DNA of 40,111 nucleotides, taken from positions 1 through 40,111 of the IMG/VR virus record IMGVR_UViG_3300006931_000019. The stretch is one strand, 5' to 3'. The notes under the pieces were generated by a model, which was not told the DNA's origin, did not search any database, and was given only the letters and a program-made list of their open reading frames with translations. This DNA comes from a virus. The translations under genes and the position numbers were made by a program. Each line of letters starts with the position of its first letter. The first letter of the stretch is position 1. Of this stretch, positions 33,317-37,140 are shown piece after piece.

Positions 33317-33880
33317 ATGGCGGCACCGAGGCCATTCTTCGTATACGAACTGATCGATCCGAGAGATTCCAAGCCTTTTTATGTTGGAAAGGGTAGCGGA
33401 AAGCGGATTTCAGATCATTTCCGTGAAGCCGCCAGTGGGAAAAATAGTCATAAATGCAACAAGATGCGATCAATCCAAGCCATCGGACTTGAGATTCAGA
33501 CAAGGATTGTTAAGGAATTTCGCACTGAAGACGCGGCCTATCGGTTCGAGGCGCGCCACATCAAAGCAATAGGCATGGACAACCTGACAAATCTTGCACC
33601 AGGCGGGCGTGGCCCAGGCGGCAGGGCAGCAGACCCAGACCTATCAGACATCGACATTTTCGTTCTAGCCGTGAAGAAAACAGCCGGCTTTACACGCCTT
33701 CCCATCCTCATGTTCGGGGGCGAGCGCATAGAAATTGGTAAGGCTTTATTCGACATCGGCTATAATCTCTATTACAAACTCGTGAAATCACGCGGAGAAC
33801 AATGGGTTAGAGAAAAACTGGCCCGCAAAAATGTCACCGTAGAATATATTGAACATCAGGCCGTTAACAATGCCGTTTGA
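33317..33880 (+). CDS. GIY-YIG endonuclease
   Basis: 187 residues. FFVYELIDPRDSKPFYVGKG (about 8-27) is the GIY-YIG core, where the two Tyr (VYEL, FYVG) and Gly are the signature, followed by Arg (SGKRISDH), a Glu (EAASG) and an ARHI helix with further conserved residues. No LAGLIDADG or HNH motif. The C-terminal 70 residues may hold a DNA-binding domain. Free-standing, it lies between small structural genes and a terminase-associated gene, a typical homing location. Start ATG 33317 has only a weak GGCGG upstream. Confidence 0.85.
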   Translation: MAAPRPFFVYELIDPRDSKPFYVGKGSGKRISDHFREAASGKNSHKCNKMRSIQAIGLEIQTRIVKEFRTEDAAYRFEARHIKAIGMDNLTNLAPGGRGPGGRAADPDLSDIDIFVLAVKKTAGFTRLPILMFGGERIEIGKALFDIGYNLYYKLVKSRGEQWVREKLARKNVTVEYIEHQAVNNAV

Positions 33881-34479: not shown

Positions 34480-34682
34480 GCGATAACCACGCGCAAATCA
34501 TGGCATTACTGGACAAGCGCATGAAAGAGGCAGAGCAAAAGATTACGTACAGCCCACAATTTCAGCGAATGAAGGCCCATTTAGAGCACACTTTCATGGC
34601 CCACGGTTCCGCTGAAGTCTGCCGCTGTCCCGAATGGGAAGACGCTTGGAAGCCATTTTTAAACGACTTAGATGCCCCCTGA
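34476..34682 (+). CDS. Small helical protein before terminase
   Basis: 68 residues. HAQIMALLDKRMKEAEQKIT and FQRMKAHLEHTFMAHGSAEV are amphipathic helices. It overlaps the terminase start by 11 bases. Could be a terminase-associated protein, but no specific family is seen. Confidence 0.55.
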   Translation: MSDNHAQIMALLDKRMKEAEQKITYSPQFQRMKAHLEHTFMAHGSAEVCRCPEWEDAWKPFLNDLDAP

Positions 34683-37140
34683 TCCCATAGTCATCTGGGA
34701 AGCCCAGCCTAGGCAATCTGCATTCATTTCATGCCCGGCTGATGATGTTGGGTTTGGTGGGGCCCGTGGTGGGGGCAAGTCCGATGCCGTCATGGGTGAT
34801 TGGCTATCTCATGAGGATCTGTACGGGCAGCACGCCATCGGTATGGCATTCCGCCGCGAGCGCACCCAGCTTGTAGAGTTGATTGAGCGCTGCCGGCAGG
34901 TTTTGCCGCTCCTTGGCCATAAATGGCATGAGCAGGACAAATACTTTCGAGGCCCAAACGGCGGCCGCCTGCGCTTCAGCTACCTCGAAAACGACAGCGA
35001 CGCCGACGCTTATCAGGGCCACTCTTATTGCGTTGCAATGGGAACTAGAATTCTCATGGCAAACGGCTCTATGCGGGCCATTGAGATGGTGCAGCGCGGC
35101 GATTATGTGGCCACGCTAGAGGGGCCTCGGCGCATCCTGGCGAGTGTCAGCCCCTATCCGGCGCCTTGCGTGCGGGCCGTTGTCCGCGATAGCGCGGGAT
35201 TGGCGCTAGGGGATCAAGTCCATCCGATTTGGCACCCTGTTTTAACCACCGCCGGATTGATTTGGTCACGGTCACCTCATGGACGCAGAAGCGACGAGCA
35301 ACCACAGTCCGCGCAACCCGCTTCTTATAAACAAGATCAAGTATTTCCTTGCAATGAGCATCCAAAGCCCCGGGGCTGGCGCGCTTGGTCAACAGATGTC
35401 CGAATCTCTCATAAAGGGTTGCCACAGACACCCGAAGAACTGATGCGGCCTGAGCGGTTGACCGTCCCTGTAATGCTTCACGCACAATCTGCTCGGTTAG
35501 CAGCCTTGAAACGCCGCGCTGACCGCAAGATACCCACTCAAAGCCATTTTCCTCGCAAATTGCGCGGATGGTGGTTGGGCTTGCTGGCACAGTATCGAGA
35601 GATTTTGTTGGGTCGCCAGCCGCTTGCCGAACTAGCTCTATCAACACGGGGTCTTGGCGCCCCCGCCCGTGCCAATGTTCTTTCAGATGCTCAGAATGGC
35701 TGGCGTGTAGCGCGAGATTTTCTCGCCTGTTATCGGTCCGGTCGTGGTTTAGGTGATGGACACGCTCTTGAGAAGATAGAAAACGGCCAAGCGATTCCTC
35801 CATTACAAGCCGATGCTGAAAATAGACCCCCTGGCTCGCCTTCGGATGTGTCGGACACCACTCCATCACATAACCACTTTTCGTCAATGTGCTGGGAGCA
35901 TCCCTATACCGGCGAGGCGCGGCATCTATCGGAGGAAGTGACTTGGGGAACGATGGAATTGACGCGGTGTGGTTTTGCATTGGTTTGCGATCTCTCAGTT
36001 GAAGGCGCAAACCACTATATCAGTGAAAGCGGACTAATAAACAAGAACACGCGGCTATACCCTGAAGAAATGGGTACGTTTCCTAGCGAGACGCCCATAA
36101 ACAAGCTCCAGGCCACGCTGCGGTCAGGTAACGGCGTGCCATGCCAAATGAAGGGTACATGCAACCCTGGCGGCCCTGGCCATCAGTGGGTCAGGGCGCG
36201 CTACCGCCTGGCTGAATATCCCAATGGGCTGGAGATATTCCGGTATGAGTTTGAGAACCCTTTCACCAAAAACAAGATTGAAAAGACGCGGGTTTTCATT
36301 CCCAGCAAGGTTTCGGACAACAAATTCCTTGGGGACGATTATGTGGCCAATCTCGCCCAAGTGGGGTCCGAGCAGCTTGTGCGGGCATGGCTCTCGGGCG
36401 ATTGGTCAGTCATCGAAGGCGCGTTCTTTGACGGCTGGTCAACCGAGAAGCACGTCATCAAGCCATTTGCGATTCCGAAGGAATGGGTCCGCATCCGGGC
36501 CGGCGATTGGGGCTATGCCAAACCCTTCTCGATTGGCTGGTGGGCTATTGTACCGGAACAAATTGTAGTTCATGGTGTGACCCTCCCTAGGGGCTGTATG
36601 GTCCGCTATAGGGAGTGGTATGGCTGCAAGGCGCCAAACGAGGGGCTCAGGCTTGATGCCGAGGACGTTGCTGCGGGGATCAAGGAACGTGAGGCTGGCG
36701 AGAAAATCGACCGCGCCGTGCTTGATCCTTCCGCCTTCGCACAAAATGGCGGCCCTTCCATTGCTGAACGAATGTACACCAGCCACAAGGTATTATGGCA
36801 TCCAGCCGATAACACCAGAGTCGGTATCCGAGGAGCCATGTCAGGCTGGGACGCAATGCGAGGCCGTCTCGCTGGCGACGGTGATGGCCATCCCATGCTG
36901 GTTGTATTTTCAACGTGCACGGATTTTATCCGTACGGTCCCATTTATGCAGCACGATGGAACGCGGCCTGAAGACATTGATACCGACGCTGAAGACCATG
37001 CCTGTGACGAAGCTAGATATGCCTGCAATTCAAGGCCGTGGACGCGGGGAGCAACGCCTAAGCCCGCTCCCGGCCCGCGCCTTATCCAAAACGCCACCCT
37101 CGACGATCTATGGAGCGCCAACAAACGCAGTACGGGGTAG
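34672..37140 (+). CDS. terL: Large terminase subunit containing an intein
   Basis: 822 codons. Residues 1-119 and 460-822 form the spliced terminase (482 residues), and residues 120-459 are an intein. Walker A GGARGGGKSD (about 29-38); TRLYPEEMG after the splice gives the Walker B region (Glu465, Glu466); the RNase H-like nuclease domain has Asp612 (RAGDWGY), Asp685 (AVLDPSA) and Asp775/779 (EDHACDEARY). The spliced junction reads ...AYQGHSY|TRLYPEE..., the usual terminase sequence, so splicing restores it. Terminase cuts and packages DNA through the portal, encoded two genes downstream. It starts at ATG 34672 by 11-base overlap. Confidence 0.9.
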   Translation: MPPDPIVIWEAQPRQSAFISCPADDVGFGGARGGGKSDAVMGDWLSHEDLYGQHAIGMAFRRERTQLVELIERCRQVLPLLGHKWHEQDKYFRGPNGGRLRFSYLENDSDADAYQGHSYCVAMGTRILMANGSMRAIEMVQRGDYVATLEGPRRILASVSPYPAPCVRAVVRDSAGLALGDQVHPIWHPVLTTAGLIWSRSPHGRRSDEQPQSAQPASYKQDQVFPCNEHPKPRGWRAWSTDVRISHKGLPQTPEELMRPERLTVPVMLHAQSARLAALKRRADRKIPTQSHFPRKLRGWWLGLLAQYREILLGRQPLAELALSTRGLGAPARANVLSDAQNGWRVARDFLACYRSGRGLGDGHALEKIENGQAIPPLQADAENRPPGSPSDVSDTTPSHNHFSSMCWEHPYTGEARHLSEEVTWGTMELTRCGFALVCDLSVEGANHYISESGLINKNTRLYPEEMGTFPSETPINKLQATLRSGNGVPCQMKGTCNPGGPGHQWVRARYRLAEYPNGLEIFRYEFENPFTKNKIEKTRVFIPSKVSDNKFLGDDYVANLAQVGSEQLVRAWLSGDWSVIEGAFFDGWSTEKHVIKPFAIPKEWVRIRAGDWGYAKPFSIGWWAIVPEQIVVHGVTLPRGCMVRYREWYGCKAPNEGLRLDAEDVAAGIKEREAGEKIDRAVLDPSAFAQNGGPSIAERMYTSHKVLWHPADNTRVGIRGAMSGWDAMRGRLAGDGDGHPMLVVFSTCTDFIRTVPFMQHDGTRPEDIDTDAEDHACDEARYACNSRPWTRGATPKPAPGPRLIQNATLDDLWSANKRSTG
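35147..35980 (-). CDS. HNH homing endonuclease encoded antisense inside the terL intein
   Basis: 277 residues from ATG 35980, with GAGAG about 10 bases upstream; the longer frame to 36010 starts with TTG. GYVMEWCPTHPKASQGVYFQ then HRLVMEESLGRFLSSQERVHH, and NHDRTDNRRENLALHASHSEH, are the standard phage HNH domain, with the catalytic His pair and conserved Asn in order (nuclear positions about 35.75 kb). Two helix-turn-helix segments follow (SVATLYERFGHLL; HEVTVTKSIRRWLKQG), suited to DNA recognition. It lies entirely within the intein and opposite to terL. A likely target is an inteinless terminase gene, but this is inference. Confidence 0.85.
   Translation of the reverse strand: MQNHTASIPSFPKSLPPIDAAPRRYRDAPSTLTKSGYVMEWCPTHPKASQGVYFQHRLVMEESLGRFLSSQERVHHLNHDRTDNRRENLALHASHSEHLKEHWHGRGRQDPVLIELVRQAAGDPTKSLDTVPASPTTIRAICEENGFEWVSCGQRGVSRLLTEQIVREALQGRSTAQAASVLRVSVATLYERFGHLLTKRASPGALDAHCKEILDLVYKKRVARTVVARRFCVHEVTVTKSIRRWLKQGAKSDGLDPLAPIPRYRGQRPARKAPDRG
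36014..36019 (-). promoter_or_regulatory. Possible -10 for the antisense HNH gene
   Basis: On the - strand, TATAGT (36019-36014) matches TATAAT at five of six positions and would start transcription near 36007, giving a leader of about 27 bases to ATG 35980 with GAGAG as ribosome binding site. No convincing -35 is present. It lies in the intein's last coding block. Confidence 0.3.

Follow-up and report, generated by a model that had tools for sequence, protein, structure and literature searches.

The terL gene and its intein

The window analysed here is a stretch of 40,111 nucleotides, comprising positions 1 to 40,111 of the IMG/VR virus record IMGVR_UViG_3300006931_000019. On its plus strand, an open reading frame of 822 aa (34672-37140) encodes the large terminase subunit TerL (phrog_979, 2e-23) and contains an intein of 340 residues (35029-36048). 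The N-extein (34672-35028) and the C-extein (36049-37137), both parts of this frame, comprise 119 and 363 residues and add up to a protein of 482 aa. The intein begins with CVAMGTRILMANGSMRAIE and ends with CDLSVEGANHYISESGLINKN, followed by Thr, and is inserted into the ATPase core of TerL, where it immediately precedes TRLYPEE, the presumed Walker B. Intein-free TerL relatives, which are 57-85% identical to the TerL of the window, lack the insertion and align through the empty site DADAYQGHSY/TRLYPEE (a slash marks a joint), in agreement with the joint AYQGHSY/TRLYPEE named in a preliminary description of this DNA. Among 99 TerL loci that were checked, the site is uninterrupted in 98.

An intein with splicing blocks at both ends and without an endonuclease in its sense frame had been proposed in that description, and both statements hold. 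Cys1 and Asn340 are invariant among 18 aligned inteins, the +1 residue is Ser or Thr, and weak Hint matches were obtained for all 18. A search of the intein's own sense frame for a nuclease gave no Pfam or PHROG match. In the AlphaFold model the ends are confident (about residues 1-75 and 290-340), with pLDDT values of about 86-94 over residues 1-70 and 85-90 over residues 301-340, and the middle is mostly disordered. The best Foldseek matches of this model are the PI-SceI, Prp8, DnaB and gp41-1 inteins (E about 7e-4, probability 1.00). According to the model, the insert carries the HINT splicing fold, and the intein is most probably removed by protein splicing. Three parts can be delimited by the AlphaFold model and by the codon-position map described below: an N-terminal splicing part (35029-35253, codons 1-75) and a C-terminal splicing part (35914-36048, the last 45 codons), both constrained in the sense frame, and between them a stop-free linker (35254-35913), mostly with pLDDT <50, which is the sense translation of a nuclease region.

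A penultimate His and a block B of the form TxxH are common among inteins, but not universal. The window intein ends in KN instead of the usual HN; all aligned inteins of its family have this penultimate Lys, and their block B reads PxxH, not TxxH.

Within the otherwise poorly modelled linker, intein codons 142-164 (window 35452-35520) form one confidently modelled strand-helix, LTVPVMLHAQSARLAALKRR, in which V146, P147, L150 and H151 are invariant. These sense residues face the conserved antisense sequence REALQGR, so that their conservation may be forced from the other strand; here the sense and the antisense reading may both matter. About 800 bases upstream of terL, at 33317-33880, the window contains a GIY-YIG endonuclease gene (LEM-3-like, 5e-12), possibly a second homing nuclease near the intein.

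An HNH-HTH endonuclease gene on the opposite strand

On the minus strand, the intein DNA contains a gene of 277 codons (35147-35980), read from an ATG at 35980; a TTG at 36010 is a possible alternative start. Its assignment as an HNH-HTH endonuclease gene follows from Pfam and PHROGs matches and from 41 homologs. The HNH domain with its flanks covers residues 36-102 (35675-35875, HNH_3, 5.8e-9), followed by a first helix-turn-helix at residues 164-190 (35411-35491, HTH_28, 2e-5) and a second one at residues 213-249 (35234-35344, HTH_23, 5e-7), all on the minus strand. The complete HNH endonuclease with two helix-turn-helix segments that had been read from 35980 to 35147 in the preliminary description is therefore recovered by these domain matches. 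The C-terminal tail of the protein (35147-35233, minus strand) faces the N-terminal splicing part of the intein, and there the sense frame dominates.

Pfam matches to the HNH domain and to both HTH segments were found in all of the 18 aligned family members, in which H75, H76, N84, N88 and H98 are invariant. Conservation was read from the alignment, strict regular expressions for HNH being misleading, as they fail at non-catalytic positions. The structure model of the nuclease has a mean pLDDT of 79. Since its Foldseek matches in the PDB are weak (I-HmuI is among them), the assignment as a nuclease rests on Pfam and on conservation. A promoter for the antisense gene was looked for and none was convincing, and the ribosome-binding matches of the antisense nuclease genes are variable; the gene is probably expressed.

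Two reading frames on shared DNA

The two genes face each other in the codon phase given in the preliminary description: position 1 lies opposite position 1, antisense position 2 opposite sense position 3, and antisense position 3 opposite sense position 2. The same description held that the middle of the intein has to be free of stops on both strands. We held the antisense protein fixed and redrew its codons from the codon usage of the window: 10.7 sense stops are expected opposite the nuclease, none is observed, and not one of 20,000 draws lacked stops. The open sense frame is thus not a product of chance. For the middle of the intein in 12 divergent members, simulations predict 3-12 sense stops per member, and each of them has none. 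A trace of this is visible in the nuclease itself. In this phase, an antisense Phe followed by a codon starting with A always creates a sense stop, and because of this property of the genetic code the antisense proteins lack such pairs: none of their 305 Phe residues precedes I, M, T, N or K, versus 4 of 14 in free-standing HNH proteins.

Selection on the two frames was examined by a codon-position map of 24 distinct inteins, all of the same length. Within codons 1-75 and 301-345 the differences gather at sense position 3, and in codons 76-300 at sense position 2, which is antisense position 3; codons 46-60 show a mixed pattern. Counts of isolated changes in 12 independent pairs gave, for the middle of the intein, 244 changes that are silent in antisense and changing in sense versus 27 of the reverse kind, where 81 and 84 are expected under neutrality. 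The relation is inverted in the N flank (12 versus 98) and in the C flank (4 versus 30). In a close group, the tail of the nuclease has 14/72/41 differences at antisense positions 1/2/3, versus 95/53/403 in its core. Map and counts therefore indicate that the ends of the intein are selected as a splicing protein and its middle as a nuclease. As judged from these substitution patterns, the computation shows that both reading frames are maintained by selection.

Relatives of the element and its mobility

Relatives were collected in IMG/VR by an HNH alignment search and afterwards by a search with the HNH-HTH family. This yielded 41 contigs with homologs of the window nuclease at 46-61% identity. 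Most of these homologs are almost complete, five are truncated where their contigs end, and a few lie on contigs that are near-copies of one another. In all 41, the nuclease gene lies antisense within an intein that occupies the homologous position of TerL, and wherever a contig has both ends the joints follow the pattern DA..YQG..[YL]/C ... GL[IV]NKN/[ST]. The facing frame contains no stop in any of them, as opposed to 2-21 stops in the other two opposite-strand frames. A broken antisense frame in relatives, which the preliminary description had put forward as an observation that would speak against it, occurs in none of the 41. Between groups of this family the exteins diverge down to 34-40% identity.

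Beyond IMG/VR, a tblastn search of 50,697 phage records gave no match for the intein and only domain-level matches for the nuclease, none covering most of the protein. The scanned contigs of 84,980 prokaryote genomes contained no full-length member of the nuclease family, and DNA-pattern searches for the intein/extein joints returned one chance match in one case and nothing in the other.

Three TerLs (L183-L185) are 97-98% identical to the intein-bearing L118 and precisely lack the insertion. In addition, nuclease and extein trees disagree: the exteins of L139 and L145 are 95% identical and their nucleases 70%, and a grouping of L139 with L145 is rejected by the nuclease data, one of L139 with L135 by the extein data. 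This would fit a replacement or transfer of the element. A second conflict, at L130, is less firm (AU test: p 0.008 with nuclease data and p 0.22 with extein data), and since the extein test is not significant, the argument from trees rests on L139 and L145. Intein-free alleles of up to 98% identity together with the tree conflict indicate mobility; from these sequence comparisons, computation shows a patchy presence of the element and its transfer between hosts. What the presence pattern and the tree conflict demonstrate is movement, not that this nuclease drives it.

One contig, shared by L041 and L126, contains a terL (L041:1874-5497) with two inteins, a LAGLIDADG-type intein at Walker A (GGARGGGK/...HN/T) and an antisense-HNH intein before Walker B. 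A second intein, apparently LAGLIDADG-like, is also present in L050.

A wider group of inteins with out-of-frame nucleases

A screen of HNH-domain loci revealed further inteins with an out-of-frame nuclease in L050 and L068 (both at TerL Walker A), in L077 (clamp-loader P-loop) and in L108. A final HNH scan seeded with these gave 80 additional HNH loci, and in each of the 80 the gene lies antisense within a longer host ORF in the phase position 1 to position 1. As this set was found by similarity to known antisense nucleases, it demonstrates dedication to the site and not the frequency of the arrangement among all HNH genes. Most of the hosts are TerL Walker-A inteins, and a small number are clamp-loader P-loop inteins. 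A pattern identified the C-terminal splice junction in 76 of the loci, and inspection by eye added L270 and L273; in the family of the second scan ("Family 2"), the C-terminus of the intein is mostly HN. The hosts that were tested match Terminase_6N or terminase PHROGs, or the clamp loader in the case of L317, and for a few of those tested a terminase match was absent.

The switch of constraint from sense to antisense and back to sense is repeated in three more TerL lineages. Stop avoidance is repeated in the wider set as well, the test being weaker in GC-rich members (P 0.02-0.06). In a tree of HNH sequences, which is short and poorly resolved, the antisense-intein nucleases are strongly clustered, with 3 changes versus about 25 for shuffled labels, and one or a few origins are possible on this sequence basis. 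Overall, the arrangement was found in more than 120 IMG/VR contigs. The relatives of the same design that the preliminary description had suggested looking for thus comprise the 41 contigs of the TerL-intein family and the 80 further loci. Its view that no standard intein class is built in this way stands insofar as we found none in the open-access literature; the arrangement is not unique to the window. Probably, these elements represent a widespread and undescribed class of phage inteins, situated at the Walker A and Walker B sites of TerL and at the clamp-loader P-loop, in which a dedicated HNH-HTH homing endonuclease, expressed independently of the host gene, is encoded on the opposite strand in a single phase; the shared DNA would then be kept open for translation in both directions.

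Antisense HNH ORFs were also observed inside giant ORFs of 1,700-2,100 aa (L072, L094, L099 and L101). These are in a different phase, with HNH position 3 opposite host position 1, and stops are below chance in L099 only. Owing to the phase and to stop counts within chance, L072, L094 and L101 were rejected as cases of the same design.

Proposed mechanism and alternative explanations

We regard it as highly probable that the element is a homing intein whose HNH nuclease is supplied in trans from the opposite strand, the sense translation of the nuclease region being a disposable linker. The sense strand would be translated through the whole segment, and terL would survive only if the frame is free of stops. 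The two ends of the intein would fold as the splicing domain, and the middle would be discarded as a linker along with the intein. From the antisense strand, an HNH endonuclease with two HTH modules would arise as a protein of its own, separate from TerL and unattached to the intein. In intein-free terL, this nuclease would introduce a cut or nick close to where the intein inserts, and repair of the gene would copy the whole element in. Several features count against this mechanism: a penultimate Lys and a block B in which Pro replaces Thr are atypical of splicing inteins, no promoter found for the antisense gene was convincing, and the ribosome-binding matches vary.

Among the alternatives, a real nuclease that is merely housed in the intein and has another role, as a free-standing HNH protein that aids packaging or excludes competing phages, appears unlikely. 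HNH proteins adjoining terminases do aid packaging (PMC11855218). Against such a role, every family member among the loci recovered sits in an intein at a conserved site, either a P-loop or Walker B, and close intein-free relatives exist, so that the nuclease gene is dispensable for packaging. We consider it very improbable that the insert is not spliced at all and stays as a tolerated loop in the sense product while a hidden nuclease drives homing. Insertions of this ShiLan type exist (PMC11855218), and the unusual penultimate Lys and block B Pro would suit such a loop. This is opposed by the strong conservation of both splicing blocks under sense selection, with C1, N340 and a +1 Ser/Thr in all members, by insert ends that model as a HINT fold, and by the position of the insert, which interrupts the ATPase core immediately ahead of Walker B. 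Still less credit can be given to the antisense ORF being a relic or shadow, with a functionless HNH reading on an ordinary intein that has an unrecognised sense insertion domain. Long antisense ORFs do occur by chance in GC-rich genes, and the confidently modelled sense residues 142-164 with their invariant positions could be read in this way; but the HNH and HTH matches in 18 of 18 members, the invariant catalytic HNH residues and a middle whose changes are overwhelmingly silent in antisense and not in sense argue against it, and its strong form is already refuted. Removal at the RNA level, with the segment as a group I intron that holds the nuclease gene in antisense, a situation known from nuclear group I introns (PMC9548176), can practically be dismissed, as neither strand has an Rfam match at E up to 1 and the sense frame is open, with ends selected as protein.

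Returning to the homing intein with a nuclease supplied in trans, the elements seem to constitute a kind of selfish genetic element that is widespread and has received little notice so far.

Comparison with known systems

In the textbook view, inteins are fusions, and the homing nuclease domain is made each time the host protein is made. Here, nuclease and intein are uncoupled onto opposite strands, which could allow the nuclease to be produced at a different moment from its host protein, such as ahead of terL, a late gene. The nuclease gene and the host gene each limit the changes open to the other. The group offers a large, natural case of antisense overlap that is replicated over more than 120 loci and at least three insertion sites, with a single phase and a sharply drawn selection boundary. 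It also suggests that homing nucleases are missed wherever the annotated strand alone is read.

An unfused nuclease located between intein halves is also reported for split inteins, the 'fractured genes' that Dassa et al. are said to have presented in 2009, in which a nuclease gene lies between the halves and the host gene is broken in two. In contrast, terL in the window remains one continuous frame through the antisense gene.

Canonical HINT inteins (PI-SceI type; mycobacteriophage TerL, PMC5050341) share with the window intein the HINT fold, C1, the C-terminal Asn and the +1 Ser/Thr, as well as insertion into the TerL ATPase core, a nuclease coded between the splicing halves and a patchy distribution. 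However, their nuclease is an in-frame domain, whereas in the window it is a separate protein of the opposite strand and the sense frame is a linker; their penultimate residue is His and not Lys. In the mycobacteriophage intein survey (PMC5050341), the words antisense, opposite and reverse are all absent. A published antisense-nuclease intein was not found in the open-access literature, the preprint 10.1101/2025.01.02.630785 on non-canonical actinobacteriophage inteins lying outside that scope.

I-DsqI is encoded by an antisense homing endonuclease gene in a nuclear group I intron, and its expression and cutting have been shown (PMC9548176). Like the window nuclease, it lies opposite to the host gene strand within a self-splicing mobile element. 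Its host element is an RNA intron in rDNA, whose strand need not be open, whereas both strands code for protein in the window; moreover, I-DsqI is a His-Cys nuclease and the window nuclease is of the HNH type.

In 2025, Arsenault, Gosselin and Gogarten described the ShiLan domain along with further HNH insertions hidden in the methylases of phages (PMC11855218). ShiLan likewise is mobile and has an HNH gene out of frame in a host gene with an open frame. It differs in that its HNH gene uses a different frame of the host strand, a splicing domain was not detected and the insert is retained, while the window has the opposite strand and an insert that is an intein.

Several methylase loci were encountered beside these systems. 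L108 contains a DNA methylase intein (L108:513-2372) whose HNH endonuclease is read from the same strand but in a different frame; 19.8 stops are expected in the host frame and none is seen, which makes it a same-strand counterpart of the antisense design. In Mycobacterium phage MKC-IRE-02 (PP711298.1), an annotated methyltransferase (L027:1444-3021) contains an antisense HNH ORF (L027:1815-2360); splicing blocks are not visible in it, and it forms an antisense equivalent of ShiLan, here in a phage that has been cultured. In the Mycobacterium phages Bombitas and KashFlow (L026 and L034), an annotated DNA methylase is accompanied by an HNH ORF that uses a different frame of the same strand, and in both the methylase is annotated as two pieces.
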